Source: Microthyrium microscopicum (taxonomy: Eukaryota; Ascomycota; Dothideomycetes; Microthyriales; Microthyriaceae). From it: a stretch of 64,000 bases of DNA. A program made the translations under genes and the position numbers. Positions 4,702 to 62,400 of this stretch are shown piece by piece (position 1 is the stretch's first letter; the number at the start of each line of letters is the position of its first letter). The stretch spans positions 3,059,744-3,123,743 of the forward strand of contig MU004230.1 in assembly GCA_010405405.1 (NCBI GenBank), read 5' to 3'. Under the pieces are notes generated by a model. It did no database searches. It saw only the letters and a list, made by a program, of their open reading frames with translations, and was not told where the DNA came from.

Positions 4702-7475
4702 ATGACCTGGCTAAATGATGAGGGCTTCTCGGAGGAAACCCGCATGGCAGAAGACGCTCTAGACAATGAAGTTGGCCCTTCAGCATCTCAGATACCTGAC
4801 TGGGTAGCCCGTCTACCCGCAAGACAAAAGAGTGGTAAGTTTACTTGTTCCCTCTATGCCAACCCCACAATCTTCGTCTTCATCAGCCTTTGCTAATCAG
4901 CCATCCACTCCCAGAACTCGCCTATGCCATCCTCCGAAGCCTTCCAACATCCAATATCGCTTTGATTGTTGACAAACTCAATCCACTCCTTCATATCGAC
5001 CCCATCCTCCACCTTCCGGCTGAAATCACTCAGGAGATCTTCGCTTACCTTGATCTCCCTTCTCTCGTCACCGCAACTGTTCTATCGAGATCATGGCGTC
5101 TCCAAGCACTAGATCCACAATTATGGAAACACTTGTTCGCATCGGAGGGTTGGAAGGCAGACTACAAGCGCGTGTGGGATTTTGAAGAAGGACAACGGCA
5201 GCGCGACCAAGAGAAGCAACGCGAACGCAAGTCACGCGCACGGCCTGCGGATGCCGTTTCCGATACCGAGTGCAAGTCCCCTAAGAAGAGAGCTCGCGAA
5301 CAAAGCCAGTTTCAACGAGATGATGAAGATTCGGCCATGCTGGAAGTAAATGCAGCCAGTCCAGCTCGATGGGCGGAGCAACATGGCACGGTTGAGGCCG
5401 ATGATGTCGACATGGAAGACCTAGTTCCAGGCTCAACGCGACTAGACGATGAAGATCAAGCTCAACAAGCACAATTGTCCCTATTCAATTCTCGGCGAAA
5501 TACGACTCGTCCACAGCCCATATATCCGCCAATAAAGTCAACACTATTGACCACAGAATTTAGCTCATCTGCCCAGATAAACTGGCAATATCTATACAAG
5601 CAAAAGCGTAGACTGGAGGAGAACTGGAAAGCCGCACGATTCACAAATTTCACATTACCCCATCCTAGTCATCCCCACGAGGCTCATGCGGAGTGTATTT
5701 ACACCATCCAGTACGTGGGAAAGCACTTGGTCAGCGGTAGTCGAGATCGAACAATTCGCATCTGGGATCTGGACACTCAGCGTCTGATATTACCACCGCT
5801 ACGTGGACATGAAGCCTCTGTTCTTTGTCTTCAATTTGATATGCGACCATCAGAAGACGTGATAATATCAGGGGGAAGCGACTGTCACATCATCGTGTGG
5901 CAATTCTCTACCGGCAAGATGTTGAAGAAGATCGAACGCGCACATCACGAATCTGTGTTGAATCTGAGATTCGACAGCCAATATCTAATCACATGTTCCA
6001 AGGACCGGACTATCAAAGTTTGGAATCGCCATTCACTCTTACCGGATGATGAGGCATACCCGGCCAAAGGATCATCATCTTCTGCTCGATGGCCCTCTTA
6101 CATTATCGATATTTCTGACGAAATGGCTCGAACTGGTTTACGGATTCAACCGCTTGCTGAATATTCCTTGTTGATGACCCTTAACGGACACTCTGCTGCA
6201 GTAAACGCAATTCAAGTGTTGGACAACACCATTGTGTCAGCATCAGGTGATAGACACATCAAAGTCTGGAACATCAAAACTGGCATGTGTACCAAGACAA
6301 TATACGGTCATCAAAAAGGCATCGCTTGTGTACAATTCGATGGCCGTCGGATTGTTAGCGGTAGTAGTGATGAAACCGTCCGCATATTTGATGCAGTCAC
6401 AGCGGCGGAAGTTGCATGCTTGAGAGGCCATGCTGAGCTTGTTCGTACTGTACAAGCTCGTTTTGGCGATGTTATGAGCGACGTCAAGAAGGAAGAAGCA
6501 GAGGCGCGAGCATTGGACCAGAAGTTCTTCAAGGCTTCCGCATCCAACCCGGAGCAAGCCAAGCTTTCGCGAGAACAGTGGCGCGCTCGAAATGCCGGTA
6601 GCAGTGATGTTAATGATGTATTTGCATATGGTGCAAAACTCCCACCTGGGGGAGGCGGAAGCAAATGGGCTCGGATTGTCTCTGGTAGCTACGACGAAAC
6701 TATCATTATCTGGACTAGAAATCCCAAGGGCAAGTGGATACCTCTACATCAACTCACGCAATGGGAAGCAATTCTCCGAGCTGGTGGTCAACCCCGATAC
6801 ATCCCACAGCCTGGTCAATTTCCTCCAGCACAACACATTGCGAATGGTGAAGTTCGACGAAGAGCTCAGCGTACTCATCATAACAATCATCGACAGCAGC
6901 CGCAGCAGCAGCAACAGCCACAAGCCGCCCAAGGTCGTAATGGTCGTACACAGCAACGTACAGCACATCTCACACAGAACCACGCCTCTAACGCACAGTC
7001 AGCCGCATCGCCAAGCTCCATGCAAGCTCAACATAGTACATCTGTGACCCCAGACCCTCCCACTGCAAGCGCAAGCAGTGCAGCTGCTGTGATGCTGCGG
7101 AACGACAATGCCGCCTCTAGACCGCAACCATCTCCTCCTCAAGCTACTGCCCAACCCATTCCCCATCGTCCCGTCCAACCAGGACAGCAAGCTCAGGCAG
7201 GAGCCACGACAACTCAAGCTCCCACCGCTCCCGCCTCAAACTCTAGACATACACAAGCGCAAGCGGCTTTGGCGACCCAGTCAGCAAATGCACAAGCACA
7301 AGCCACAGCTGGCGCGCAAGCAGGCCCTCATCACGGACAACGCATCTACAAGCTTCAGTTTTGCAGCCGGCGACTGCTCTGCTGTAGTGTAGAGCCGATT
7401 ATCGTCGGTTGGGATTTCTGCTGTGGTGACCGAGACTTGGAGATAGCATCGGAGTTTTTCAGCGAAGAGTCGTAA
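4702..7475 (+). CDS. F-box/WD40 protein, SCF ubiquitin-ligase substrate receptor (FWD-1-like)
   Basis: This should be the adaptor that brings phosphorylated substrates to an SCF (Skp1-Cullin-F-box) ubiquitin ligase. Exons are 4702-4834 and 4915-7475 (897 aa); the 80-bp intron splits codon 45. The F-box is at about residues 77-120 (LPAEITQEIFAYLDLPSL). An acidic, Lys/Arg-rich linker follows, then WD40 blades ending in IRIWDL, IIVWQF, IKVWNR, IKVWNI, VRIFDA and IIIWTR. A Gln/Ala/Ser-rich insertion (about residues 690-850, poly-Gln near 703) precedes one last blade (IVGWDF) at the C-terminus, so the seventh blade is far from the other six in sequence. The layout recalls Neurospora FWD-1, which targets the clock protein FRQ, but other F-box/WD40 families (Met30, Cdc4, Pof1) exist, so the ortholog assignment is an inference. 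The gene is convergent with the gene ending at 7734. Confidence 0.92.
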
Positions 7476-43927: not shown

Positions 43928-45434
43928 ATGTTTCATACCGGAGGTCTCCAGAGTGGCATAGGTCTAGCACTACAAACATCCAAAGAAGTCGCGGTCTTCG
44001 CTTGTGGTATGTATCGGCTGGTCAGCCCTCAAAGCTTGAATGTGTCTAACATGAAGTAGCTTCTAACGAAGACCCAACATACCCAGCAAGCCAACAATGG
44101 GAGGATGTGGCATTTTCGCATACTAAAGTTTGTACTTGACTTCATACTTCTCTGTCTTGACTGACGATTTCGCCAGGTTGCGGAATACCTGGCTTCTAAT
44201 GCAGTACTTTTGAAGATTCAACAAGGCTCTCTTGAATTCACACAGTTCCAAGCATTCGTACCTAGCGTAACCTGTCCAAGTGTTATATTAATCAGGTATG
44301 AATGTGTCCAGCCATAAACCGGAGCTATTCTAACCAAGTATGACTAGAAATGGCCAAGTTACACGAACGTTCAACGATCCACAGGAGTTGATCCAAGAAG
44401 CAGAGTCGCCATCAGCCGCTCCAAATCCCACACCCACTACATCATCAAATAGCCAGAATACATCAAGTCCTCCACCACCCCAGCCAGGAGCACGACCAAT
44501 ACCCCCTTCTGCCATCGCACAAGCCGCTACACCCGCCGCACCCCAACCTCTACCAGCATCAGTACCACCCTCATCGAACCGATCCCCTCCACCCCCGCAA
44601 ACCACTTCCCCCCAACAACCGCCTACCCGCTCCCAGCCCACTCAAGACTGGGCCGCCCAACAACGCGCCCGAAACCTCAAAGCCCGCGAAGAACGCGACC
44701 GCATCCTCGCACAAATCGAGCGCGATAAGAAGGCGCGCGCCGCCGCCGCTGCCGAGCGCAAAAGACTCGCCTCTGGTGATCAGACATCTCCAAATACAAC
44801 ATCTTCTAGCACTACGGGGCCATCCAGAGCATTACGAGGATCATCAGCACATATTCAAACACGATTACTATCTGGCCGGACAATTCGGTCATCTCTGCCA
44901 GCTACTGCTTCGATATCTAAAGATTTACGACCTAGTATTGACGAGGCACTAGCTGCGGACGATGAGGGCCGCGTGCCGGCGTATAAGTTGGCGGTGATTG
45001 GGATTCCGCCACAGACAGCAAGGGAGATTGCGCTAGGTGAGGAGGGGCAGACTGTGGCGGATCTGGGATTGATGCCGAGCGCGACGATAGTAGTCGTTAG
45101 AGTCGCGGGAGCGGTGGATGCATATGCGGGTGCTGGATCAGGGATTGTTGGTACAGTGCTTGGTGTGCCAGGAAGACTAATCGGTGGCGCTTTTGGAGTT
45201 GTTGGTGCTGTAGGTGGTGCAGTAACGGGAGCTTTAGGTTCAGTCTTGGGGGTCGCTGGCGCGGCCTCCGGACCTACGAGGAACACGGAAAGTCCGGATG
45301 GAGGGGAGCAGCAGAATCAGAGGGGAGTGAATATAGGGACTGTGGGCGCCATGAGAGCGGATAGTGAGCGGGAGGAACGGCAGTTGTATAATGGGAATCA
45401 GTCTAATGTTCAGGATAACAACGAGGACAAATAG
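43928..45434 (+). CDS. UBX-domain protein with thioredoxin-like N-terminus (UBXN4-like), Cdc48/p97 cofactor
   Basis: UBX proteins bind the AAA ATPase Cdc48 and guide it to substrates, often in ER-associated degradation. Exons are 43928-44006, 44060-44127, 44177-44295 and 44348-45434 (450 aa). The N-terminus (KEVAVFACASNEDPTYPASQ; CPSVILIRNGQVTRTF) is the thioredoxin-like part seen in UBXN4/UBXD2. A Pro-rich linker, then a basic coiled coil (LKAREERDRILAQIERDKKAR), precede the UBX domain (about residues 255-345: IQTRLLSGRTIRSSLPA; VADLGLMPSATIVVVRV). A Gly/Ala/Val-rich hydrophobic stretch near the C-terminus may be a membrane hairpin, as in erasin. The last intron has two in-frame acceptors, AG at 44338 or 44347; I chose the second because it gives ILIRNGQ. 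Confidence 0.85.
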
Positions 45435-45655
45435 ATGTTCGGCATGATTTGCAGACAGCTCCCCTTTTGGATCTATTTAATGGCTAGCTATACTGCTTTG
45501 TGCTGTTAAGGTATCTCATTCACTCTTCGCCCCGTGAACATCTAGTCTATCAAAAGCAACGCAATGGTATATCTTAACACCCCCAAGCATCCAGCCGTAT
45601 CCAATACCCCTTGTCATGATCCAACCGCGACTACCCGGTCATGCTCGCAGACAGG

Positions 45656-46876
45656 TTATATCTCAGCCTTGCCAAGCAAATCGGCAAGCTCATCAACCTT
45701 TTTGTCCTTGTCCGCCGCCACAGGCGCAGCCTCAGCAGCATCTGCCCGTCTAAGCTCAGAATCATCCACCTCCTCCTCTTCCACAGTTCCATCATCCTCA
45801 TCAGACTCATCGAAGCTCTCTTGGTCGATCTCTTCTTCTATTCCCCAGTTCTCGTCACCTTCCTCCACACCAGCCGCCTCTCGTCGCTCATCCAGTATCT
45901 CTCGGATTTTTGTGACGCTAATGTTATCCTCGTCGAAGTTGTTGCCTGTAAGTTCGATCTTACGTAGCGCCGGCAAGCTCAACTCGAGAATATCAGCTAG
46001 CAACTTGATGCCATTTTCATCTGCCCTAGCGTACGCAAACTTGAACACTTCCAACTTGTTGTTCTGACCAGCGCCCAGCGCCTCAGTGATTGCCGCAAAG
46101 CCTCGTGTTCCCAAGAAGCAGTCGTTCAGACTTAGCTCTTTCAGCTCTGGCCAGGTAGGCAATGCGTTTGCGAGTGCCTTGCTACCCTTCGTCGTGAAAG
46201 TGTTGTCTTCGAGATCTAGTACCTCCAGACCCTTGACGTGCTTGAGTCCGTTGATGAGTTGCATAATTCCTCCGATTCGGATGCCGTTCTGTGTCATCCG
46301 CACGCTCTTGATGCTTGTGTTTGCGCGGAACGCTTGTTCCCATCCTTCCATTCCGCCGGCCTCTAGTCGGTTGCGCCCACATACGATGCTTTCTAGTGCC
46401 GGAGCGCCTGATTCTTTCTTACGTTCTGCTAGCTTTGCGAGTGCTTTGCCGATTTCGGTGCCAGCGATTGGCCCCATGCCGTTGTTGTTGAGGTAGAGAT
46501 GTACGAGTGGAGTGTGAGAGGCGAGGAAGGGTAGGATTGGTTTGATAGTGCTGAGGCCAAAGGCATTATCGTTGATGTTTACGGTGTGTAAGTTGGGTAG
46601 AGTGAGTAGTGCTTGGAGCAGCGAATCGATCGCTTTTGGGATTTCGTCTACGGTACGTGTACCGAATACCGAGTCGAGGCCAGCGTATTGCAGAGTTTTC
46701 TTGGTCTTGAGAACTTCGGCGAGTGCAGCAGCAGCCTCGACGCCAATTGTGTTGTCAAAGAATCGAATTTCGGTGACCTCGTTGTTTGCGGCAAGCGCAT
46801 CGAGATGCGGTTGGATATCAGCGACGGAGTTGAAGCGCAGGTTTTGGCCTTCGAGGGAGAAAATATTGGGTGCCAT
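45656..46876 (-). CDS. rna1: Ran GTPase-activating protein (RanGAP, Rna1)
   Basis: RanGAP stimulates GTP hydrolysis by Ran in the cytoplasm and so sets the direction of nuclear transport. A single exon of 406 aa. Eleven or so leucine-rich repeats of the RNI type (LHTVNINDNAFGLSTI, LVHLYLNNNGMG, LEVLDLEDNTFTTKG, LKELSLNDCFLGTRG, LRKIELTGNNFDED) fill residues 1-330. The catalytic Arg of fission-yeast Rna1 (TGR before DEIP) matches FGTRTVDEIP here. The C-terminal tail is highly acidic (EEEIDQESFDESDEDDG), also a family mark. The SUMO-binding C-terminal domain of animal RanGAP1 is absent, as in other fungi. It is convergent with the UBX gene (221-bp gap). Confidence 0.97.
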   Translation of the reverse strand: MAPNIFSLEGQNLRFNSVADIQPHLDALAANNEVTEIRFFDNTIGVEAAAALAEVLKTKKTLQYAGLDSVFGTRTVDEIPKAIDSLLQALLTLPNLHTVNINDNAFGLSTIKPILPFLASHTPLVHLYLNNNGMGPIAGTEIGKALAKLAERKKESGAPALESIVCGRNRLEAGGMEGWEQAFRANTSIKSVRMTQNGIRIGGIMQLINGLKHVKGLEVLDLEDNTFTTKGSKALANALPTWPELKELSLNDCFLGTRGFAAITEALGAGQNNKLEVFKFAYARADENGIKLLADILELSLPALRKIELTGNNFDEDNISVTKIREILDERREAAGVEEGDENWGIEEEIDQESFDESDEDDGTVEEEEVDDSELRRADAAEAAPVAADKDKKVDELADLLGKAEI

Positions 46877-47813
46877 TCTGACTTGTAGCAGGGAGTTTCA
46901 AGCGCAAATGTGAGATTGTAGTGGGTGTATATAGAGAGTTGAATGTTGGGTTTGTGATGGAAGAAGCAGCAGCAGTGGGGCGTCAAAGAGAGAAAGTGAC
47001 AACAAGGGGATGCCATCCGAAATTCCACGCTAAGGCAAAAAAGCGACAGGGGGGCGTAGCAACGGAAAGTACACTGGGGCAAACCACCACGCTATTTATC
47101 TTCATTGCCGTCCATTCCATTGTTCGCAACATTGAAGCATATGTTATATTTAAAAATATGCTAGAATTCAAGTTCTCTTTTGGAAGAAAGCAAAAGGCCA
47201 AGTAATTACCATATGCCATCTTCATGTAGCTCAACTTCAATGTTGTTCAAAAACATAAACTTTAGTGGTATACTTATATGCTCTACAGTAAATTTTCAAG
47301 CTTGACCTTTTATATATAGATAGTACCCACTAGTAGGTAAAAAAGAAACAATTATGGTTCTTGTACTTAAGATCTCAACGAAAGACTAAATAGAATTCAC
47401 ATTGGACTCTTCGGAATGCATATGCAGCTTCACGTCGATACAATATGAGTTCCGCATGCGAGATTTCAATAGCAAACCCTATGCAGAAGTACACTTCTCC
47501 AAAAAGTTTCAATACTGCTGCTTGTTTCCGTCCCAAGGTTTGAACGAAACTAGCACGCCTCGTCCCGCAATTCCTACATGAATCATTGGAAGCTTTTGAT
47601 GCTTGTTTCGCTTGGCCAACTACCAGCCTTAATAAGCAACTCTGCCGAGCACCAACAAGTTGAGCCAAGGACTTTTAGAAGCTGATGAAAGTATGATTGT
47701 GAAAAGACTAATACCTATTCCCAGATCAAGTGTCTATATACATGTGTGATGATACATATTTTTGGCAATATGATGCCCCCGAACTCCGTGCTGATGCTAC
47801 TCCATGATATGAT
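46877..47813. other. Intergenic, 937 bp
   Basis: Promoter of the RanGAP gene (minus) next to the 3' end of the secreted-protein gene. A 97-codon minus-strand frame at 47375-47668 lacks an ATG start, and I reject it. Confidence 0.5.
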
Positions 47814-48572
47814 CTAGATCTCGCCAATAGCAATAAGAGTCATACCCAGCTTTGGCTCTTCCGTGACTTCCTCTGCTGGTGTGGCACGCTTCTCGACGGC
47901 GGCAGCTCCGGCAGGTCTGGCTCCATTGGCGGCGCTGTTAATTGGGATGTTTGCGCCGGGGCTGATGACGATTCCAACACCGGCTTCTTTCGTGCCAAGT
48001 TGGATCTTTGGCTGGTTCTTGATAGCATCGCGGGCATAAGCAAGTGCCTCCCGGAAGCCGTCAATATCGCGCTTAATGCGGCGGGCGCCTGGGCTCTGTG
48101 CGGAAGTTTCATCACGCTTGACCATGTTGGGGAATTTCTTGAGTGGGTTGAAACCGCCGCCAATCTTTTGGCTGATATACTCTGGAGGAGCAAGGTTTGT
48201 TGGTGCTGTGACCACTTCGGCCACGGCGGGTGCTGGTGTTGCTGGTGCTGGAGCTGCTGGGGCAGGAGAGACAAGTGGGCTTCCGACTGCTGGTGCTGGA
48301 GCTGGTGCTGGAGCGGCGGGAACAGGACTCATGGAGGCGGCAGTACCGGCAGTACCAGCTGGGGGAGCACTGCCTGGGGCAACGGCACCATTCTGGGCTC
48401 CAGATGCAAGAGTTTGTAGGATTTCGCTGGCTCGTTCTGGTGTACCTCCGAAAGAAATCTCACCATCACCGACTACCAATGCGGGTGAGTAGGCGCCAAG
48501 GTTGATGTTGAGGGGAAGGGCAGATGCTACAAGAGCAGTCGCAAGAGCGACGAGGACGTGTTGAGGCAACAT
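47814..48572 (-). CDS. Small secreted Ala/Pro-rich protein with dibasic processing sites
   Basis: A single exon of 252 aa. The signal peptide is residues 1-18 or so (VLVALATALVASALP). An Ala/Pro-rich low-complexity block spans about 60-120. There are three Lys-Arg pairs at 152-153, 167-168 and 228-229, each followed by an acidic or small residue, as at Kex2 processing sites. Between the pairs lies a short amphipathic region (DIDGFREALAYARDAIKNQ). The very end (KLGMTLIAIGEI) looks like a conserved short C-terminal block. No Cys at all, no GPI signal, no enzyme motif. It might be a pro-protein cut into peptides or a cell-wall protein; neither is shown. The family is not recognised. Confidence 0.75.
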   Translation of the reverse strand: MLPQHVLVALATALVASALPLNINLGAYSPALVVGDGEISFGGTPERASEILQTLASGAQNGAVAPGSAPPAGTAGTAASMSPVPAAPAPAPAPAVGSPLVSPAPAAPAPATPAPAVAEVVTAPTNLAPPEYISQKIGGGFNPLKKFPNMVKRDETSAQSPGARRIKRDIDGFREALAYARDAIKNQPKIQLGTKEAGVGIVISPGANIPINSAANGARPAGAAAVEKRATPAEEVTEEPKLGMTLIAIGEI

Positions 48573-50126
48573 TTTGATGTGAATGAAGGGTATATGAGTA
48601 TTATGGGTATCAAGCTGTGAAAAAAAGACAAGAGGTAGAACTATCGACTAGCGACAAGAGGGAAAGTGAGCGAAGACGTGGAAGAGGTAATCGATGTGAG
48701 AATAGTGAATAGGAATGAGGCTGCTAAAGAAGCTTCTGTACTATTCTGCTGGATGAACTTGGAAAGCTTGAGTGGTTGGATGATAAGCAATGCCAACAGT
48801 GCCAACGGCCTCGGGACTTTATATTGATTTGGCAACCTGCAATGCATCTCGAAATGTCGGTCGCTCCTCATTGAAGGATTGAGCGAAACCAACACGAAGC
48901 GCTGCCAAGTGGTAGAAGTGAAAAGATCGGGGCAGTCTATGGTTGAGGCAAGACACTTGCCCGTGGCCAAGCATGTTGGCTAGTGTTGCGAATAGGTAAT
49001 ATGGAGCAGCCTCGAAGCTCCACAAGTGGGACTAAGAAAAGTTAGGCCAGAAAACAGTACTTGGCCGCAACTCACAAGTTACAGGACAAGGCGAAACAAA
49101 GTTGATGTACAAGTAGGATTCCAGATCTGCCCGTCCCTGTTTCAACTCCTCTGGAGGAGTTACACGGGGGGTGGCTTAATGGACTTGGCCATAGCAACCC
49201 ACGATCTTAGTAGTGTTGAATTCTAAGAAAGCCAGGAAGTCCTAGATGTCCAGTTGATGTCGCTTCGCATGGAAAGCCTGGAGAAGCAATTCTGGTCCGC
49301 ATGCCACATTGCTTGGTGTTTAACTGCTCACGCTGTTCTGAAACTGCTTGAAGGCAAACCAGCTACGGCATGGATCACGTGTGTTCCATGCAAATCGGAC
49401 AGTACAAACTGCATTCAGTTTACATAACGCAAATAGTTTATCTGCAAGTTCAAGATTCAAGTCTTCATCGAAGGTTGATGACATTGGAAAGTAGCTTTTG
49501 GAGTTGGAGTTTACTGGGTGTGAGGGTTGCAGACATTTGACGGAGCTTCTCTTACGAAAGGCTATTTTAGGATAGATCCACTTGCAGATTGGCCTGTTTA
49601 TGGCCCCGATCTCCAAATGTGAGAGAGAGTAGGCTTTTCGCGCAGACACGCCCTTGGCAGGAGGTGAGCGAGGTGACAATGCGGGTGCTTAATATGGGAT
49701 GCGAAGCTCTTGGAGACAAGCACTTGTGAAGGCCAAGTTCAGCACTTACGGGAGGTGTTTGAAGTCTCTGGACATGACTTGTCAGTTCGCAGATCCAAGC
49801 CTGCTATTGTGACAACCAATCATTTCAATGGCCATCCCGGTAGCCTGTAGAGCGCTTCCAAACTGAACTGCAGATTAATGTATATTTGGGATTGTTGTTG
49901 TTTCTGATCATCTCGGAAGTCGGGAGAGCATCTGAAGCTCAAGGGAGGTGATTGATCAAGAGTCCGTGCTCGCATGCTCGAGATCGATCATCAAGCAAGT
50001 GAATGACCATATTCATATTGATAGGTTATGGCCTGAGATGCTGTTGGAGTACAACACATTTCAGCCCCTTGAAGAAACTATTGTTGAGTTGAGAGTTAAG
50101 ACGAAAGTTCACGAAACGAAAGCTCA
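48573..50126. other. Intergenic, 1.55 kb up to the transposon
   Basis: Promoter of the secreted-protein gene, then sequence of normal composition right up to the transposon edge. Open frames at 49320-49679 (minus) and 49948-50145 (plus, ending inside the transposon) have no family signature. The original intergenic space here ran on without a break to 55425 before the insertion. Confidence 0.5.
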
Positions 50127-50134
50127 ACCAGTTC
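50127..50134. repeat. Left target-site duplication (ACCAGTTC)
   Basis: Eight bases directly before the left inverted repeat. They match the eight after the right one except for one C-to-T change. Confidence 0.85.
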
Positions 50135-50150
50135 CAGTGTTGTAATGAAT
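50135..50150 (+). repeat. Left terminal inverted repeat (CAGTGTTGTAATGAAT)
   Basis: Sixteen bases identical to the reverse complement of 55401-55416. Confidence 0.93.
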
Positions 50151-50169
50151 AGCTAAATAATCCAATTCT

Positions 50170-50184
50170 GAATACGCCACTATT
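50170..50184 (+). repeat. Subterminal direct repeat GAATACGCCACTATT, left copy
   Basis: A 15-bp word 35 bp inside the left end. It recurs in the same orientation near the right end, each copy followed within 12 bp by AGCGC. Subterminal motifs in hAT elements can be transposase-binding sites. Confidence 0.8.
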
Positions 50185-53100
50185 CTAAATAGCGCCTTAG
50201 CATATTCTAAATACGTAGTATAAATATATTTATGAATATTATAATAGAAATACATAATTAATTATATTACTTAGCTAAAAAACGATAGAAATTAGTAGCT
50301 AGTTCTTTAATTAACTATCTACTATAGAATAAAGAAGCCTAAATAGCTAAGTAGCTTAGAAACTAAGCGACTAATTAGCTAATAATTAGATATATAGAGT
50401 ATTATTATTATTAAGAAGAGTAAAAAGATTAGAGTACGTAATAATAACTAAGTAGCGATTAGCTACGTAGTTATTAGCTATAGAAGTAATCTATCCCTAA
50501 ACTTACTTACTAAATAGAATAAAATAAACCTAATTATCTAATTAGCTAGTAAACTTATAGGCTATAGCCTTATCTTACTAAATATAATAGTAATATACGT
50601 TATCCTAATAACTAAGAAGAACCTTATATTTAGTAAAGCGTTAGCTATGAACTATCTTAGAATAGATATAGTCTAATCCTTATAATATATTAGAAATTAT
50701 TAGCTAAAGAGTAAGTAGAACAAATAAGTTAAACTTCTTAGCTAAAGATAATAATAAGAAGGCCCTTAATATAAGAAGGACATTAGCTAAAGATATCCTA
50801 TAGTCTAATAGAGTTAACTTAAATAAGGATATTCTAATAAAGAGTATTAGCAAACTAGCGTAAGATAGCTTAGATAGTTAGCTAAGTAGCTAATTAACTA
50901 AATTAAAGTATATATTTATTAGCTAACTTATATTAGTTAGGTAATAAGCATAATCTAAGAAAGCGTACTAAATATTATCCTAATTAAATTAAAGACACTT
51001 AGCTAGTTATTAATAGTAACTAATAGTAATAGTCTAAGTAGTATTAGTTAAGAAGTTAAGTTAGCTATAGTTAGTAATAGCAAATAATAAAGAATTAGTT
51101 AAGTAATATTAGGTAGCTACGTAAATAAGAGCATAAGAGGAAATATTAAAAGGGTCTATAATAATAATTAATCTTTTATAGAGAACTATGTAGATAATTA
51201 GATAAGAAAAGTTAAAGTTATAGAATAGAAAAAGATAAAGCATTTTAGAATTTCTAAAAAGTTAAGGGTTAGTAGGGTTAAATACTTAAACTATATTTCT
51301 TAGCAAAACTTAAATAATATTTAGCTAAAACTTATAATACTAAAATAATTTATCTTTTAATTATTCTATAAATAATTAGCTACTTATTTACTCTATAAAT
51401 TCTACTCTTATTATTTACTTATCTAATAAGCCTAAAGATAAAGCGTAATTTAAGCCCCTTAGCTAAATAGCTAACCCTAAAGTATAAGCAATAACTATAT
51501 TATATCTACGTTAATTATCTAATTAGCTATTATTATGTTTACTTTCTTATATTAGTTAATATTATTATTAATATTTACTATGCTAATATTATAATCTTAA
51601 ATAATTAACTCTCTATAAATAAAGATTAGAAGACTTAGAATATTAAATACGTTAACTAATAAGCTAACGTAGTTAAGACGCACTAGTTTAATAAACTTTC
51701 TTAGGAAGAGTTTAATAGCTAGTTTAGTACCTAGGAGTTACTTAACTTAGCTACTTAGCTAACCTAAAAAGAAAAAGAAGAAATTAATTCTATAGATAAT
51801 AAAGATAATAATTATAATAATAATAATAATAACTAATTAGCCAATTAGCTAACGAAGGAGGACCTTATATTTATTTAAGCATACTTAGATAATAACTTAT
51901 TAGCTAAGGAGCTTATTAAGGATAATAGCAAAGAGGAGATAAGCAATAAAGACTTTATTATAGGCTTAGACGATAAAAAGAAAAAGGATATAGAGGAGAA
52001 AGAAGATAATAGTAATAATAAGGAGGATCTCTAGTTATTATTAACTAATAATAATAAGTAGTTTAAGATAATAGATATTAAGTTAGGTAACTTAATATAG
52101 CTAGCGTTAGCTAAAGATTATTCTATAATAAATTTAGAATAATAACTCTTTTAAAATTCTTTTTATTCTAAACTACCTAGCTTGTTTAATCGTCTAATTA
52201 TAGTCTTTTATAAAATTACTTAACCTATAAAACCTTATCTTTAAAGTAATCCTATTAATATTCTTATTCTTATACGAAACGTTAATATACTTTAAGCTAA
52301 AGTATATATTCTCTCTTAACTTAATATTTATTCTTATCTTTAATCTATAAATAAAAGTCTTTATCCTACTATTAAACTAGACCTAAAAAGAAAGGATTCT
52401 TTATTAGCTAACTATTATTGTCTTCTATAATCTTTTTAATCTTATAAAAGAACTTTTAGGCTTTCTCTTTATTATCTAAAATATAAAGAGGTATTATTTA
52501 AAGATACTCTCTATATTCCTAACTCTAATTACTAAGCTATTTTAAATTATTATTATATAATAGCTTTAGCTAAGGTAATAGCTAAGTTTATAAAAGAAAA
52601 GGACTCTTAAATTATATAAGGGTAGAAGTAATAAGTTAATCTTCTTTACGTAGTTTTATAAAAGATATTATTATAACCTATAAATAATAAATCTTTAGTT
52701 AATTAGTAGGATAAAAGTTATAGCCTAGTAAAGATATTAATTCTCTTTATTATTTAGTTATATAGAAATATACTTAATAAAGCTATATCCTTTATATAAG
52801 CACAAACTAGCTTAATCTATTTAGGATTTAGTAAATAATAAAGTAGGCAATAAATATAAAGACTACTAAAAAGCTTATTATAGTTTTGCTTAAGAGTAAG
52901 TAGTATTATATAAAAATAAGGATCTACTTATAACCTAATAGTAGAAACTCTAGGAAATATTATTAGCTAAAGAGTAGAATAAATAAAGAAAAGTTATATT
53001 TATTATAAGATCTAAAGATTAAAAATTAAGAGAATATAATTTTACGCTAAAGAAATAAAGCTATAAATATAGCTACTATAACCTTATATCTTAGCCTTAT

Positions 53101-55344
53101 ACTTATCCTCCTTCTTAGTTAATTATCTAGCTATCTCTTATTAATACTAATATTTTAATCTTTCTAAAGCTTTAATAATATCTTCTATAAGTCTAGCTCT
53201 ACTCTAAATAATTATTTAATAAGATATTAAGAATACTTACTCTAGTTCTATACTTATAATAGAAATTATAAATAAGCTAATTATAAGCTTTAAAAGTATT
53301 AGCTATTATATTTAAATATAATCTTATAGCTACTATTATAATATAGTAATTAGTAACTTACTAAATCCTACTATAAGTAGCTCTTTAAGATATATATTTA
53401 ACTTATTATTAGCTAATACTATTAAAAAACTAGATTCTAAGAATACTTAGTTTTAATCTATTATAGTTTACTTTTCTTATTTCCTCTTCTTTATATAATA
53501 AAGCGCTTATTTAGAAATTATTATCATCTAAGTACTTAGACTAATATCTTTCTTCTATTTAGTCTAGATTAGTTAGATCTTCTTAACCTATACGTTTATA
53601 GATTAGTATTAAAACCTACTAAGATTTTAAAGGTAGGTTATCTAATATCCTAGATAGAGAAGAGTTATAAAAATATAAAGAGGATATATCTAAATAATAT
53701 CCTACTACTTATTCTATATATCTATATAAGTATTAATACGCTATAGTATATTCTTTTTATAAGTAATAAGTTATTTCTAATAAAGTTAGATTATACGATT
53801 AGCTAATAATAAGAAGTAAAAATAAACCTTTTTAGATATATACTTATTCTTCTAAGCATTAATTAATATTTTTAAAGCCTATAAAAAGAGAATTATAATT
53901 AAGATATTATAATTATAGCCTTTATTCTAAAGTATAAGTTCTTAAAAGATTTCTAAGAATTTTAAAATAATTTAAAGAAAGTCCTATTTATTAGGATTAA
54001 GCTAGTTATCTAATAAGTCTAGCTATCTCTTAATATAAAAATTAATACTAAATTCTAATCGTAAAGCATAGAAGATTATAAGATACTAACTATTCTACCT
54101 TATTTAATTATTTAAAAAAACTATTCTACTAATATTCTTAATAAATATTTTTTATCTCTTAGATAAAGCTTAAATATAAATAATAATATTATAAACCTTC
54201 CTTATAATACCTATAGATTAAAATTATTCTACTTATATTTAAAGTGCTTTAAGAATTAGTTCTTTATAATCTAAAGAAGTATCTTATTTATTATATGTAG
54301 CTAGTTCCTTTACTATTATTCTAGTAAATAAGAAACCTTCTATAATTAGATTTAAGATATACCTAAGATATCTTATATATTAAACTATAGAATTCTAAGC
54401 AATAAGGATTAGCTAAGTAGCTAACTAAGTATAAACTACTATATAAAGAGTATTATTAGTAGTAGCATTATCTCTTATAATATAGCCTAGTTAAGAAAAA
54501 ATCTAATAGGTATCTAAGATTAGCTAAAGAGCTATAAATTAATTCTAACTACTATAACTAATAATACGTTAAAGACTTAATAAGGCTTATTCTTAATAGT
54601 TTCCTTAGACGAAGTAAGCTATAATACTAAGAAGTAGATAATTATTTAGTAATATCTAAATATCTAAAGTAAGATATATAAAAGATTAACTTTAGTATAA
54701 AGCTTTAGTTATTTTAGCTTAAGCTAATAGCTATTATAAAATAATATATAATTAGAAGGTTTAGCAACATCTAGGAAGAAACTCTATCATTTCTAAATTT
54801 AAAAGAACTAGAAGATATTAAAATTCTAGAGATTTAATAATAAAAATTAGTAAAGAATATTAGATAATAAATTAACAAATTACTTCTTAAATAATATCTT
54901 TATTAAGCTTAGGTAGCTAAGATCTAATTATTTCTTATTACTATTATTAAATAATTATTAGTATAATATTTAAATTAATCTTATAAGCTAACTTAAGATA
55001 TAGTTAAAGATTTATAGTAATAGAATAAGAGTAACTATAATTTAGAGCTTTATAATATTATAATCTATAATCTCTCCTTAGAGTCTTTACTAGTTTGTTA
55101 GAATTTATATATTAAAAGTATATAGTAAGGTTCCTTATCTAATCTTAAGTAGCTTCTTTATTTTAGATTAAAAGATTAGAAAAAGAGATATTACTAAGGT
55201 CTACTTTAACTTTAAAGAAGGTCTTATATATAATAAAAGTAATAATATTTAAGTAAGTAGTATAGGCTAGTTAGCTAATAAGGAGTACTAAGACTATATA
55301 AATAATTTATTAGCGTATTTATTACTAATATTTATTAATATTTA

Positions 55345-55359
55345 GAATACGCCACTATT
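55345..55359 (+). repeat. Subterminal direct repeat GAATACGCCACTATT, right copy
   Basis: Identical to 50170-50184 in sequence and orientation, 57 bp inside the right end. Confidence 0.8.
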
Positions 55360-55400
55360 TAGCGCTATTCTCTATTTATTTATATTTAGAATACTATTCA

Positions 55401-55416
55401 ATTCATTACAACACTG
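55401..55416 (-). repeat. Right terminal inverted repeat
   Basis: Reverse complement of 50135-50150, ending ...CACTG at the element border. Confidence 0.93.
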
Positions 55417-55424
55417 ACTAGTTC
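55417..55424. repeat. Right target-site duplication (ACTAGTTC)
   Basis: It differs from the left copy only at base 3, where C followed by A has become T, the exact change that RIP makes. Confidence 0.85.
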
Positions 55425-55457
55425 CAAGATGGGCGAGGGGGGTAAGGTCACGTGCCT

Positions 55458-55497
55458 ACGCGTTTGAATTTCCCAGCTCCACGCGTTCGCAACGCGT
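55458..55497. promoter_or_regulatory. Cluster of three ACGCGT (MCB) boxes
   Basis: ACGCGT stands at 55458-55463, 55481-55486 and 55492-55497, that is 62-101 bp upstream of the ATG at 55559, with spacings of 23 and 11 bp (about two turns and one turn of the helix). A CACGTG palindrome lies just before (55449-55454). ACGCGT is the known binding site of MBF (Mbp1/Swi6), which switches on DNA replication and repair genes at G1/S in fungi. Confidence 0.75.
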
Positions 55498-55558
55498 CAT
55501 TCTACCTCACTCCGATCCTATCTTGCTTCCCTTATTCCAAAGCCATCAATGAAGTTAG

Positions 55559-57493
55559 ATGGAGTCAAGTCAGGCCGCTGTGCTGGAGTTCTCGTGCCAA
55601 TTCACTCGACAAGTCAGACAGAAGCAGAAGAAATGGGCTGATGGCAAGCTGAAGTTTCATTGCTTCAACAAGAAGATTGTTGTACGAGACGACAACGGTT
55701 CAATATTAGGAGGATGCCACCGATTAGATGGGATCGTTGAAGGAGATGAGGTATCCTTGGACAATGGACTTTTAGTTGAGGTTGGTGTCTTCATCAACGC
55801 CACCCAGACCAACCTCGCACCACTCTTTGACCGAAATACTCAACGATCTCAACATCCGGCGCAAAATCAGACTCCAAGGGCATCCGTTATTGCCTCTCCT
55901 TTACCGCCTACTCGAGTCGGAAACACCAACTCAGAGTTTGGTCGGCCTCGCCCATCCCCAGCCACTAAACCAAAGCACAAGTCATTGAGTGCTCTACTAA
56001 ATTCCACCGGACCTATTGGAAAAGCCCGGCCGCAAGTTTCTCCCTTCGAAGAACGAAATGTTACAGCGGAGGAAGAAGATTTTGAGGAAGACGAGCAGAG
56101 AAATCCTCCGGTGAAGAGAAGACGCATCGAACCCCCTTCGCGGAAAGAGGCATGGACTGTCACAGCGTTGAGCCGGCCAAGTACCTCTACGAAGCCCAAA
56201 GACACGATACATCCACCAACGAGACCTAAGAAGACCACCCTTGCTAAAAAGGCAAAACCAAAGCCCAGATCGCCTGGTCAGACGACTCTACGAAGACAGA
56301 CTATGATCGATCTCACAACTCCTTCTCCAAACGAACATGAGCCTTTGCAAAGCAGAGTCCCTACTCGAAACAAGGCTAGCGAGAGCGGACCTTCCATCAG
56401 ACAAAGTTTGAGTGAACGCATTGGAGTTGGAGAGACTATTGTGCGCTCATCGTCACCGCCGGTCCGGGCCTCCAATACTGTTGTGCATGTCGACGAGTCC
56501 TTAGACATCATTGACGATGATGCTGCATCAGCGGCCTATGAGTTGGCCGAAGCTGAAAAGATACCTGGTGCTAGAAGCGATGCATCTAGGCCTTTTGCTT
56601 CTCGCAACAATGGCTCTCGAATTGCAGCATCTCCAGATTTTCCATCAGGAGGTGCTCAAAATCGCGAAGAGCGGCGCAAAAAGTCCTTGAAACTTGTCTC
56701 CAATAAAAACAAGAGATCTCGTTTACTTTGTATGCAATCAGAAAATAAAGAAAACACCTCCGACCAGCAAGAAGACGAAATTGAGGAGCCACCTTCTGAA
56801 GCGGTACAACATAGGCCACGACAAGCTTCTGGAGGTCGAAGTCGAAATAACCAGGAACACCAGATAACTCCAGTACGACGGTCTATCGGAGCGCGGGGAG
56901 GACCGAAATCACCAGTCATTGTGGTTGATGAGGATGACTATGATAGTATTGATGATTTTCTTGCGACTTCCTCTCCTGCAAAACCGAACCCTAGAAGAAC
57001 GGCCGCCCCTATCGTTGCACCTTTAGGTCAGACGATTGTGCTGCCTGCTGGACCATCTGAAGCACCGGCCCAAGCATCTCCACTTCGTAGCTCACTACGG
57101 CGCATACAATCAGAGTCTGACGCAGCGAGTAGTAGGAATGCTCAAGGCGTGAGGCCTGTCGATCAACAAGGCCCGGTGGGTGCTGGAAATACCCTGGCTG
57201 CTGCGGTTGGTGTAGCGAGGACAACTATGGCGGCTCCTCGTACATCCAATCTTCAAGATCGCCAGAATCGTCTCAATTTACAACGGGGAAGAACATCGCT
57301 CACTCGCGCACAAACCCACGCTGCGGCCATAACGCCTTTCCGCCCGCCAATGCCACCAGTCGTGGAGCCAGAGCCCACACCGCTAGATTCGGGTCCATGG
57401 AGCCGCGAAGCTTTTGATTTGTTTGACTGGAGACCGCCGGATTGGGAAGCGAGGATGGCCGGAGTTCCCTCAACAGTTGGAATGGTTGACTGA
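55559..57493 (+). CDS. Mte1/Dbl2/ZGRF1-family protein (DUF2439), regulator of DNA repair by homologous recombination
   Basis: Yeast Mte1 and fission-yeast Dbl2 bind the FANCM-type helicase Mph1/Fml1 and steer recombination at broken forks and telomeres. A single exon of 644 aa. The DUF2439 domain fills residues 7-80 (VLEFSCQFTRQVRQKQKKW; WADGKLKFHCFNKKIVV; ILGGCHRLDGIVEGDEVSLD). The rest is long, basic and disordered with many SP/TP sites (KRRRIEPPSRK; TTLRRQTMIDLTTPSP). It ends in a short conserved-looking block (PWSREAFDLFDWRPPDW) of the type used to dock a partner. There is no helicase domain, so it is the fungal short form rather than full vertebrate ZGRF1. Its promoter is squeezed to 142 bp by the transposon upstream. 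It is convergent with the Trm5 gene (64-bp gap). Confidence 0.85.
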   Translation: MESSQAAVLEFSCQFTRQVRQKQKKWADGKLKFHCFNKKIVVRDDNGSILGGCHRLDGIVEGDEVSLDNGLLVEVGVFINATQTNLAPLFDRNTQRSQHPAQNQTPRASVIASPLPPTRVGNTNSEFGRPRPSPATKPKHKSLSALLNSTGPIGKARPQVSPFEERNVTAEEEDFEEDEQRNPPVKRRRIEPPSRKEAWTVTALSRPSTSTKPKDTIHPPTRPKKTTLAKKAKPKPRSPGQTTLRRQTMIDLTTPSPNEHEPLQSRVPTRNKASESGPSIRQSLSERIGVGETIVRSSSPPVRASNTVVHVDESLDIIDDDAASAAYELAEAEKIPGARSDASRPFASRNNGSRIAASPDFPSGGAQNREERRKKSLKLVSNKNKRSRLLCMQSENKENTSDQQEDEIEEPPSEAVQHRPRQASGGRSRNNQEHQITPVRRSIGARGGPKSPVIVVDEDDYDSIDDFLATSSPAKPNPRRTAAPIVAPLGQTIVLPAGPSEAPAQASPLRSSLRRIQSESDAASSRNAQGVRPVDQQGPVGAGNTLAAAVGVARTTMAAPRTSNLQDRQNRLNLQRGRTSLTRAQTHAAAITPFRPPMPPVVEPEPTPLDSGPWSREAFDLFDWRPPDWEARMAGVPSTVGMVD

Positions 57494-57557
57494 TGCGATG
57501 ATATATGAATGAGACACGATACATTACATTATGCATACATAACCTCTACAATGAGAA

Positions 57558-58956
57558 TTATTCAACCACCCTGTGCGCAACCTCCTCTGGTAGTATGAAA
57601 CTTGCACAGAACATGCGCTTTTTCGGAGCTACATCTCTTACATCAATTACTTCTACTTCGCCTTCTTTGCTGCCATCACCAGGCTTGAACGAGAAGTTGA
57701 GATGCTGTGATATCTCTTCGCATATTTTCTCTCCTTCTGCTTTGTTGTCATCTGATTTTGTATTGAAGCAGTACACGTGGATCTTAGGCAATGGAGTTCC
57801 TTTTGAAATGTTTGCCCCGGAATATAGACCTACGAACGAAGGTAGAAACGTCAATGCTGTGGCCGGAAGGTTCATCAGAAAATGTGAGAACGTTTTCGGC
57901 TGAGTCATCCTCGTTTCTTGGAAAGGTTGCGGTTTAGATCTCGACTGTTTCTTGCGAAGCACTACTTCGCGATCTGTCTTGTACAACTCTGCCGTTGCTC
58001 TTCGAATAAACTTGTGACCATCTTCATTGAACGGTAGCACGAAGTCGGCGACTTTGTTCCTGGCAATGCCATCCTTCAGTGCCGCATAACTCTCTGGGTT
58101 CAAGTCATTCGCCCATACAAAACATTTTTTCTTTCCGGCTGGTATAGCGAATGGACCAATTCCCCCCATCACGTCACATATTGCATCGCCTTCTTTAAAG
58201 AGGTTGACATGTCGCTCGTGTTCCGTGTTCAGTCTCGAATTCCAGTAAACTTTAGCATAGTTGAATAGAAATATGCAATCTTGTTCTTTCACCGTGACAT
58301 TCATATCATCTGGTCCAGAAAGTACTTCGTATGAAAAGGTTCGGTATACGGATGCTTGACCGACGTCGTCTACCTTGTTGATGATGGTTGTGATGGTGGG
58401 ATTCTTGTCCTGTAATACTGTAGCTATCATTTGTTTGTATGGGAGATATTCATCTGGTAGATTCATGTGACCGACATGTCCTACTTGCTGAAAAGCAGCG
58501 GTTAATCCGTCGAGAGCGTCTTCGGGTAGAATGGCATTCATGATTTCTCGGTAGGTCCAGTGGTCGTAGTCGATCTGTAGATCATAGGGGATGAGACTTA
58601 TTTGCTCGGTATTGACTAGTTGGCTCATGGTGTTTCCCCATGTTGAGTTGTCTGTCTATACGTGAGCTAATATTAGGTATATTACAATATTGACTCATAC
58701 CATTGTGTTTAAGGTCTGGACGTAGTAGAATGCATTTATTTCCAGATGCTTTTTTGGAAGGTTCTGGATCGGGTCGAATGCTACTGATTCGCTCTATGCC
58801 TAATATGTCCCCGCTTTTGGAGAGTTCGTTTCGTAATTTTGATAATTGATTATTTTGGAAGACTCGAGCTGCGGATATGGGTATCGTCTTTTTGAAAAAG
58901 CTTCTATCAAGCGTGCGCATAGCGCGATTTATAGGAGGTCGCATGTCTAGAGACAT
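57558..58956 (-). CDS. trm5: Trm5, tRNA (guanine-37-N1)-methyltransferase
   Basis: Trm5 places m1G37 next to the anticodon, in cytosol and mitochondria, preventing frameshifts. Exons are 58956-58701 and 58651-57558 (449 aa); the 49-bp intron is phase 1. N-terminal part: RTLDRSFFKKTIPISAARV. Core: YDHWTYREIMNAILP, VGHVGHMNLPDEYLPYK and INKVDDVG. SAM-binding region: DVMGGIGPFAIPAGKK and WANDLNPESY. NLPATALTFL is the catalytic NPxY-like block of class I TrmD-independent m1G37 enzymes, followed by CFNTKSDD. ATG 58956 (MSLDMRPP) gives a basic N-terminus that could serve mitochondrial import; ATG 58944 is a second start that could give the other form. It is divergent from the kinesin gene. Confidence 0.95.
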
Positions 58957-59473
58957 TTCGACTTGAACCTTCAGGGAAAATTGCTGGAATTTGGTAATGA
59001 AGTGGACATGGCGACTCACGACTCCCAGCCGAGATGAAAGAACAAAAACGAGGACTTCCTGTTTGGGAAACTTCCCTGCGACGTGGTGGACCCTGAAAAA
59101 AGGCGCCACCGTGGCGTCACTCCCCTCGCCCCAGGTGGATCTGTCAACAGTCCAGCAGGAACCAACGCGTCCTGTCACAAAGTCGTTGGTGTCCAAGAGG
59201 GCTGCAATACCTGGTTAATATCGACCACTTTAAGCTGCTCTGACATCTGTACCTTGCCATCTATCAGAAACCAGAGCGCGTTTTCATCCCAAAGAATCCT
59301 GAACGCGCCCGGCCGTGCGAGCTGTCAATTCAGTCATAGTTCGCCAGCTCCCTGATATGGCTAACTAGGCCACCGAGTCTTGCCCATTTCTACACCGCCG
59401 AACCTACTTTCGCAGCAGCCATATCGCACCCTATTAAAACCACGTATCTCATATCCCCCGGACATCTCCAACC
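58957..59473. other. Divergent promoter between Trm5 and kinesin-3
   Basis: 517 bp between the two ATGs. One ACGCGT lies at 59165-59170. No exon seen. Confidence 0.6.
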
Positions 59474-62400
59474 ATGGCGAGTTCGGGAGGAAACATCAAG
59501 GTCGTTGTGCGGGTGCGCCCGTTCAACAGTAGAGGTAGGCGGAGGCTCCGCGCATCGCGTGCAGCGCATGCTAGAGGATACGGATAGCTGACGGAGTACT
59601 AGAAATCGATCGCAATGCAAAATGTATTGTTCAGATGAAAAACAACCAGACCGTCCTTGTCCCACCTACCGGTGCCGATTCTCGAACGAAGAACGCCAAG
59701 GCCGTGTTGGATGGAACCAAGACCTTTGCCTTTGATAGGAGTTACTGGTCTTTTGACAAGAAGGATGATAACTATGCCGGACAGGATAGTCTGTTTGACG
59801 ATCTGGGCAAGCCGCTGCTTGATAATGCATTCAAAGGTTACAACAATTGTATCTTTGCGTATGGGCAGACAGGTTCCGGAAAATCATACTCCATGATGGG
59901 ATATGGACAAGAATACGGAGTTATTCCTAGAATTTGCAGGGACATGTTCGACCGGATAGAAGAGAAGCAGGACAAGAACTTGGGCTGCACTGTTGAGGTG
60001 TCGTATCTTGAAATCTACAATGAACGGGTTCGCGACCTTCTGAACCCTGCAACGAAAGGAAATCTCCGAGTTCGCGAACATCCGTCGACGGGTCCTTACG
60101 TGGAAGATTTAGCAAAATTAGTTGTGAGATCTTTCGCTGAGATCGAAAACTTGATGGATGAGGGAAACAAAGCAAGAACTGTTGCTGCGACAAACATGAA
60201 CGAGACATCGAGTCGATCGCATGCCGTGTTCACCATTACCCTAACACAGAAGCGACACGACGTGGAGACACGAATGGATACCGAAAAGGTTGCAAAAATC
60301 AGTTTGGTCGATTTGGCAGGTTCTGAAAGAGCTACATCCACAGGCGCAACCGGTGCGCGGCTGAAAGAAGGTGCAGAAATCAATAGATCACTCTCCACAC
60401 TTGGTCGTGTCATCGCAGCGTTGGCGGATCTGTCAGTTGGGAAGAAAAAGTCAAAATCTGCTCAAGTACCATACAGAGATTCCGTCTTGACGTGGTTATT
60501 AAAGGACTCGCTCGGAGGAAACAGTTTGACGGCAATGATAGCGGCTATATCACCCGCTGATATCAACTTTGACGAAACTTTATCAACACTCCGATACGCT
60601 GACTCGGCGAAACGTATCAAGAATCACGCTGTTGTCAATGAAGATCCAAATGCTCGTATTATTCGCGAACTGAAAGAAGAACTGGCAGAACTCCGCTCAA
60701 AACTTACCGGTGGTGCAATGTCTGGTCCAATCGAAGAACAATACCCCGAAGGTACGCCACTGGAGCAGCAGATTGTTTCCATTACGCAAAGCGATGGAAC
60801 AATCAAGAAAGTGTCCAAGGCAGAAATTGCAGAGCAGCTAGATCAGTCGGAAAAGCTGTACAATGATCTCAATCAAACATGGGAACAAAAGCTTCAAAAA
60901 ACAGAGGAGATCCAAAAAGAACGCGAAGCAGCTCTAGAAGAACTGGGAATCACCATCGAGAAAGGCTCTGTAGGAGTTTCCACTCCGAAGAAAATGCCAC
61001 ATCTTGTCAATTTGAGTGATGACCCTCTTTTGGCCGAATGCTTGGTGTACAATATCAAACCAGGATCGACAACTGTGGGTAGCATTGACGCCGACTCTAC
61101 CGTTGCAGAAATCCGCTTGAACGGGTCAAAGATCTTGATGGATCATTGCACTTTCGAAAACGTGGATGAAGTTGTCACCGTTGTTCCAAAAGATGGTGCT
61201 GCTGTCATGGTCAACGGTGTGCGCGTTGACAAACCCAAACGACTACGAAGTGGTTATCGCATCATTCTTGGCGACTTTCACATCTTTCGATTCAATCATC
61301 CCCAAGAAGCGAGAGCCGAACGGGCGGAGCAAGGGAGCTTGCTGCGGCATTCCATCAATGCTAGTGACCTACCAACTCCCACTCGACCTAGGCATGAACG
61401 ACATGGTAGTACCATTAGCATGCTAGGTTCCGAAGGAGCGGATAGTCCAAGACCTGGCTCACCCGTTAGGAAAGGGGCTGAAGATTGGTCATTTGCGCGT
61501 CGAGAAGCTGTGAGTAACGTCATTGGGTCGGAGCAGAAAATATCTGCCTTGAACGATGATGAGCTCGATATGCTTTTTGAAGATCTTCAGAGAGTTCGAG
61601 CCGGACGCCGTACGAACAAGCATGAAAGCCGAATCTTCGATGCGGAAGACGACACTGATTCCAATACTTCATACCCAATCCGGGAGAAGTATGCATCCAA
61701 TGGAACAATCGACAACTTTTCACTCGATACCATCCTCACTGTTCCATCTACTCCTCAGGCGGGCGGGGAAGAGGACCAACGGTTGCGCCTTGTCCGCGAA
61801 GACATGCAGGATAAGCTCGACAAGCAAAAAGAAGAATATCAAGCCAAGCTCACGCAAGCGGAAGAGGCTCAAGTTGAGGTCGAAGTCATCAAAGCGGAGA
61901 AGGAAAAGATGGAAGAGAGCTTGTTGCATATTAAGGAGGAGATGCAGAAACAACTTCAGATACAAAAAGATACCTTTGAGCGGCAAATCAAGCAGCTCAG
62001 GGCACCAGCAACTCCTCAATCTGATGGTAAAATGCCAAAAGCCCAGGAAAACCTTGCAAAATGGGTGATTGAGCGATGGAGACAGAAACGACACGTCAGC
62101 ATGGCTGAGAAAGTTCTTCAAATTGCTTCTCTTCTCAAAGAAGCCCAAGTGCTCAGTCATGAGATGGACAAACAAGTTACTTTTCAATTCTGCGTAATCG
62201 ATGCAGGTCATGTGTTTGGATCTTCATACGACCTGGTCCTCAATGGAGTCTCATTAGAAGACGACGAAGATCTTGAAATGGCAGCCAAGCCGTGTATTGG
62301 CGTAAGAGTGATCGATTATAAGAATTTGGTGGTTCACCTTTGGTCCTTGCGAAAATTGAGAACAAGGATTCGCCAGATGCGACAATTGTATCAGTACATC

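Follow-up and report, generated by a model that had tools for sequence, protein, structure and literature searches.

The feature under study is an A+T-rich block of 5,282 bp, located at positions 50135-55416 of the window (the whole 64,000-nucleotide stretch of DNA that was analysed). Its G+C content is 21.3%, against 47.8% for the window outside it. As the sequence-only reading had described, the block is bounded by perfect 16-bp terminal inverted repeats, which can be read directly in the sequence and give both ends a CAGNG-type start (CAGTGTTGTAATGAAT). The 8-bp flanking duplication described in the same reading was also found; it is present at 7/8 bases rather than perfect as had been implied, and the single mismatch between ACCAGTTC and ACTAGTTC is a C>T change at CpA, which is of RIP type. 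The features of the locus are as follows.

50127-50134: left copy of the 8-bp target duplication, ACCAGTTC, 7/8 bases matching the right copy
50135-55416: whole element, RIP-mutated and non-autonomous by the present reading (from an indel-free second copy of equal length and the RIP indices)
50135-50150, plus strand: left terminal inverted repeat, CAGTGTTGTAATGAAT, 16 bp (sequence read and genome search)
50135-50234: left rim with fading RIP, strongest in the outer 44 bp, where 7 CpA/TpG remain per long copy
51636-52235, plus strand: sole coding-like stretch, about 200 codons (codon model and three-base periodicity)
55317-55416: right rim with fading RIP; 5 CpA/TpG remain per long copy in the outer 18 bp
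55401-55416, minus strand: right terminal inverted repeat, the reverse complement of CAGTGTTGTAATGAAT, 16 bp
55417-55424: right copy of the 8-bp target duplication, ACTAGTTC (sequence read)

Across the window there are seven perfect 16-bp inverted match pairs no more than 20 kb apart (overlapping pairs counted separately), and one of the seven has flanks matching at 7/8 bases or better. About 140 bp separate the right end of the element from the beginning of an open frame (55559-57493) with a ZGRF1-like N-terminal domain. Within the element, at about 53289-53426, lies a 138-bp imperfect palindrome, which is present in both long copies described below. No RNA family matched anywhere across 45000-60000.

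A search for other copies, which the sequence-only reading had proposed, revealed five more elements with such ends. The exact 16-mer occurs seven times in the 36.9-Mb, 20-contig genome and its backwards control not at all. With up to 2 mismatches, 40 places were found against 12 for the backwards control, and a RIP-tolerant end pattern gave 26 against 22, in each case among the places listed; since the control counts come close, these looser matches mean little alone. With the window copy, six elements could be bounded in the genome, the other five being:

C1:498023-503304: second long copy, 5,282 bp, duplication GCGACGTG perfect
C2:1513621-1513900: un-RIPed MITE, 280 bp, duplication ATTAGTTC perfect
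C6:2086565-2086844: un-RIPed MITE, 280 bp, duplication ATCACCAG perfect
C14:229576-229959: short family member, 384 bp, duplication ATACATAC perfect
C12:1375599-1376784: family member, 1,186 bp, duplication 5/8, two of the three mismatches being of RIP type

The 8-bp duplications are thus perfect in 4/6 members, 7/8 in the window copy and 5/8 in the 1,186-bp member. The latter looks like a relative of the 384-bp element carrying a nested insert with perfect 29-bp inverted repeats. The second long copy is without the first C of its end. A DNA search with the element returned 15 matches, namely itself, its family relatives, the palindrome in both long copies and three short matches elsewhere. 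Three other A+T-rich loci matching near element positions 4793-4872 were judged to be chance resemblances between RIPed A+T-rich sequences; the element's frames, with stops read as X, gave no protein match at E up to 1 to these three loci or to the hAT loci, and neither did a reversed control. The 16-mer was not found on either strand in a literature search, and its 12-letter outer part appeared only in six papers, all unrelated by title.

The assignment to the hAT type, which had been made from the ends, was borne out by the 8-bp duplications, the CAGNG ends and the likeness to hAT-domain elements of the same genome. In two other hAT families, one end was set by the limit of homology between copies and the partner ends were located by pattern search, which returned 14 places in one search (control, 12) and 8 in another (control, 0). 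Six elements of these families were bounded:

C4:1947963-1970045 and C18:112824-136599: PF05699 match inside each
C2:1488850-1496394 and C13:786057-793529: PF05699 match inside each
C6:2032489-2054550 and C5:513146-514268: no PF05699 match inside

Their 8-bp duplications are perfect in five of the six and 7/8 in the sixth; PF05699 is matched inside four of these elements. The ends of the two families, CAGTRTTGGCATCY and CAGGGTTGTGATT, start like CAGTGTTGTAAT: by eye, the first 8/8 bases are shared in the un-RIPed form of one end and 10 of the first 12 in the other, and beyond these opening bases the ends of the present family differ from both. CAGNG ends have been reported for fungal hAT elements (PMC3441728). 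Because hAT-domain elements of this genome have related CAGNG ends and 8-bp duplications, the sequence comparison makes hAT-type ends a well supported assignment for the 5,282-bp element.

RIP acts on repeated DNA during the sexual cycle, and the element is repeated in the genome in the form of its second full-length copy. The RIP predicted by the sequence-only reading was evident in both indices: TpA/ApT is 1.55 inside the element and 0.68 outside, and (CpA+TpG)/(ApC+GpT) is 0.15 inside and 1.32 outside, with both 5-kb flanks resembling the remaining window in composition. The two long copies align without gaps and are identical at 4,865/5,282 bases, and 413 of their 417 differences are transitions. 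The window copy has 210 private RIP-type changes and the C1 copy 203; therefore, both copies were RIPed at least partly after separating. Of the sites that one copy has altered or that both have kept, 74% of CpA, 65% of CpG, 32% of CpC and 23% of CpT are changed. Only 38 and 36 interior CpA/TpG remain in the two long copies, 7 of them common to both. Overall, G>A changes outnumber C>T changes in the window copy, 141 to 69. Tracts of RIP on one strand were considered and rejected, as C>T and G>A runs are no fewer than expected by chance (z 0.68 and 0.48).

Within the family, RIP differs with length. Given in the same order, the two indices are 0.86/1.18 and 0.84/1.21 in the 280-bp copies, 1.38/0.61 in the 384-bp member, 1.59/0.11 in the 1,186-bp member, and 1.55/0.15 and 1.54/0.15 in the 5,282-bp copies. 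The minimum length for RIP has been given as about 400 bp (PMC6710886), and shortness may explain the clean 280-bp copies. In Neurospora, however, 220 bp sufficed for RIP between closely placed repeats (PMC4858203), so shortness need not be the reason that the 280-bp copies are unmutated, and recency is an alternative.

A genome search for the hAT domain gave 17 PF05699 matches, all over the cut-off, and none of them lies in either long copy. When the window copy was read through in six frames, no Pfam family was matched at E up to 10 except for one chance hit (E 3.4); the C1 copy was covered for hAT by the PF05699 genome search and a home-made profile. As a control, the same read-through of two RIPed hAT loci recovered PF05699 at 62.3 and 37 bits, whereas the first of these loci read out of frame yielded no match. 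The home-made profile was built on RIPed hAT loci, 15 of the 17 found, leaving out L068 and L069, and all 12 frames of the two long copies scored below zero with it. Of the loci left out, L069 scored 103.3 bits and L068, which is another kind of hAT, scored -1.3; the profile would therefore miss a distant hAT too.

That no frame of 60 codons survives, as had been stated, is right to within a codon, the longest stop-to-stop stretch being 60 codons. In eight RIPed hAT genes stops make up 2.4-4.8% of codons. A codon model based on 12 hAT loci in six families gave scores of 14.7 to 27.6 per 100 codons when tested on one member per left-out family; having been trained on hAT genes alone, it could miss other kinds of gene. 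Applied to the long copies, it gives a clearly positive score only for windows at about 1501-2100 on the plus strand; weakly coding signals elsewhere reach 2.2 (window copy) and 1.5-1.6 (both copies). Three-base periodicity peaks at 1351-1950, where the window copy reaches 45.2 and 50.9 and the C1 copy 44.9 and 42.4, the simulated maximum being 27.5. No hAT similarity was found for this coding-like stretch; outside the two long copies, it gave a single weak match in the genome (E 0.10) and another in PDB (E 0.73). Taken most simply, the element is non-autonomous and may retain part of one gene.

It had also been proposed that readable ends are exceptional in a RIPed element. This was not borne out here, as eight hAT ends show RIP fading over their outer 50-100 bp. 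These ends, from three families and with 2 kb of interior each, were profiled by the measure (CpA+TpG)/(CpA+TpG+TpA). From the tip inwards, the CpA/TpG share falls from 0.614 (outer 25 bp) to 0.341 (25-50 bp), 0.137 (50-100 bp) and 0.026-0.040 (beyond 100 bp); the window sequence to the two sides of the element has values of 0.751 and 0.787. CpA/TpG are likewise retained in the outermost 25 bp of another eight ends, of which only 39-46 bp are known. The ends examined are not independent, and most were picked or found by patterns favouring unmutated ends; the four ends taken from homology limits (C4, C18, C2 and C13) show the same rise, such a limit being seen in only two hAT families. Beside this fading, the ends of two shorter members are RIPed: one end each of the 384-bp and 1,186-bp elements has lost every CpA and TpG within its repeat to RIP. 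Elsewhere, the ToxhAT ends in P. nodorum are reported to be enriched in RIP mutations (PMC6737239). These cases, together with the lost first C of the C1 copy, speak against a general rule. In Neurospora test constructs RIP mutations tend toward the repeat centre (PMC4858203), so an edge effect is a natural explanation of the fading. A broader proposal can be offered only tentatively and is itself rather unlikely: RIP would spare the outer 50-100 bp of DNA transposons since homology is needed on both sides, so that it kills the transposase and leaves a copy that can still be moved in trans. Autonomous elements would then become trans-mobilised ones, and a first round of RIP could have preceded the movement of the two 5,282-bp copies.

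How the element arose can be weighed between several explanations. That the ends are chance inverted repeats in A+T-rich sequence, with no transposon at all, might be suggested by the 198 imperfect inverted pairs of at least 18 nt within the block; it has a negligible probability, being ruled out by a second copy elsewhere with the same ends and length and a perfect duplication, and by the four shorter elements with such ends. KDZ/Zisupton and P-type elements also give 8-bp duplications, which alone are therefore no proof of hAT, and the interior is without a hAT domain, as would be expected if the element belonged to one of these superfamilies and its transposase were invisible to the searches. 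This is very improbable given that the ends share their opening bases with hAT-domain-bearing elements. The KDZ transposase (PF18758) gave no match in the genome or in the window copy read-through, a weak argument because 14 control genomes gave none either; P-element families were covered through the Pfam scan of the window copy read-through.

A more serious alternative is a formerly autonomous hAT whose own transposase gene was RIPed beyond recognition, as the sequence-only reading had supposed. The ends and duplications are of hAT type, the length is close to the figure of roughly 5 kb cited as typical for hAT elements (PMC6710886), there is a coding-like stretch of about 200 codons, and no other source of a matching transposase was found. 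This explanation is nevertheless doubtful, as Pfam and the home-made profile recognise similarly RIPed hAT transposases in this genome and not this element. Moreover, the best 150-codon window of either long copy contains 8 stops, against 1-4 in the eight RIPed hAT genes. The explanation that we consider likely is instead a long non-autonomous element with hAT-type ends, moved in trans and then RIPed. Non-autonomous hAT elements and hAT MITEs lack a transposase but have matching ends and 8-bp duplications, and the 280- and 384-bp relatives found here are alike in this respect; 5,282 bp is long for such an element. Counted against a long non-autonomous element are the lack of a transposase source with these ends, the existence of the coding-like stretch and the two weakly coding places. 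No autonomous partner carrying the complete end turned up: in the ≤2-mismatch and RIP-tolerant lists, both of which are lower bounds, no place was near a PF05699 match (nearest about 14 kb), in an assembly that may be incomplete.

Under the trans-mobilised, non-autonomous reading, a hAT transposase made elsewhere would recognise the CAGTGTTGTAATGAAT ends and insert the element by cut-and-paste at an 8-bp staggered target; of this, the ends, the duplications and the family are observed. Both 5.3-kb copies were then RIPed to a similar extent, with nearly all CpA and many CpG and CpT converted, and the private transitions place at least part of this after their separation. The ends are still readable because RIP faded in the outer 50-100 bp, presumably through an edge effect of homology recognition, and the 280-bp relatives may have stayed unmutated through shortness or recency. 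The element is thus real, well bounded, hAT-ended and RIPed, and it probably lacks its own transposase.

RIPed hAT elements of a comparable kind, their ends still readable, have already been published. In Pseudocercospora fijiensis, a RIPed hAT with a histone H3-like sequence is described as having hAT ends, 8-bp duplications and RIP inside, and 99 complete elements keep recognisable 20-bp ends with extra sequence between them, as here (PMC6710886). According to the same report, it differs in being about 9.5 kb long and present in many copies, in that a DUF659 domain is still found and in having captured a histone gene, whereas the present element is 5,282 bp long with two long copies, and no transposase domain or captured gene was found in it. 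ToxhAT of wheat-infecting fungi is likewise reported to be hAT-like: its inverted ends enclose additional sequence, and in some hosts the unit has undergone RIP. It differs in its size of 14.3 kb and its 74-bp ends (PMC6737239). VdHAT1 of Verticillium dahliae, with Crypt1, Drifter, Tfo1 and Restless, is reported to have CAGNG ends, and VdHAT1 an 8-bp duplication, both like the present element. VdHAT1 differs in being 3,164 bp long with 22-bp ends and in having been found through its transposase domain (PMC3441728).

The find is sound and fairly ordinary, a relic with a RIP-scrambled interior and surviving ends. Its family offers, in one genome, members of 280, 384, 1,186 and 5,282 bp in which RIP damage is absent at 280 bp, partial at 384 bp and nearly saturated from 1,186 bp upwards. 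It could thereby serve as a natural series for the length dependence of RIP, although six elements are few. The fading of RIP towards repeat edges is a further measurement that it contributes. Furthermore, RIP alone seems not to hide a hAT transposase in this genome, which suggests that a RIPed element without one may never have had one.

Retention of CpA and TpG was followed inwards from eight hAT ends, comprising both ends of the window element (50135-55416), both ends of its second long copy (C1:498023-503304) and one end each from elements on contigs C4, C18, C2 and C13. It was 0.614 in the outer 25 bp and fell to about 0.03 past 100 bp. The private RIP-type changes of the two long copies were also separated by strand. 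The C1 copy carries 111 C>T and 92 G>A changes, and the window copy carries 69 C>T versus 141 G>A. The changes in the window copy are unbalanced between strands, yet long one-strand runs are absent from both copies. A 1,186-bp relative of MITE-like kind (C12:1375599-1376784, L035) appears to hold a nested insert, which is bounded by perfect 29-bp inverted repeats at element positions 15-43 and 786-814.

Three spans in the genome, whose ends were located in L066, L067, L073, L074, L077 and L078, have hAT-type ends and a size well above the hAT norm:

C4:1947963-1970045, hAT-ended span of 22,083 bp, perfect 8-bp duplication
C18:112824-136599, hAT-ended span of 23,776 bp, perfect 8-bp duplication
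C6:2032489-2054550, hAT-ended span of 22,062 bp, perfect 8-bp duplication

Among the matches listed, RVT_1 is present within the C18 and C6 spans, and nested retroelements may therefore explain part of their size; none of the listed RVT_1 matches falls within the C4 span.

Two loci with hAT-domain matches stand apart:

C9:558218-558415, hAT dimerisation domain (L068), surrounding DNA 41.8% G+C
C5:84502-84654, hAT match (L069)

In contrast to the remaining hAT loci, L068 shows few signs of RIP, and it was not matched by the profile made from other hAT loci. L069 is apparently a hAT element with a retroelement inserted into it, since the reading upstream of its hAT match resembles, by eye, a Copia-type retroelement and an RVT_2 match lies nearby (C5:85930-86643).

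Beside the window element lies an open frame:

55559-57493, open frame whose N-terminal domain is ZGRF1-like, starting about 140 bp past the element

The window element may lie within the promoter region of this frame.
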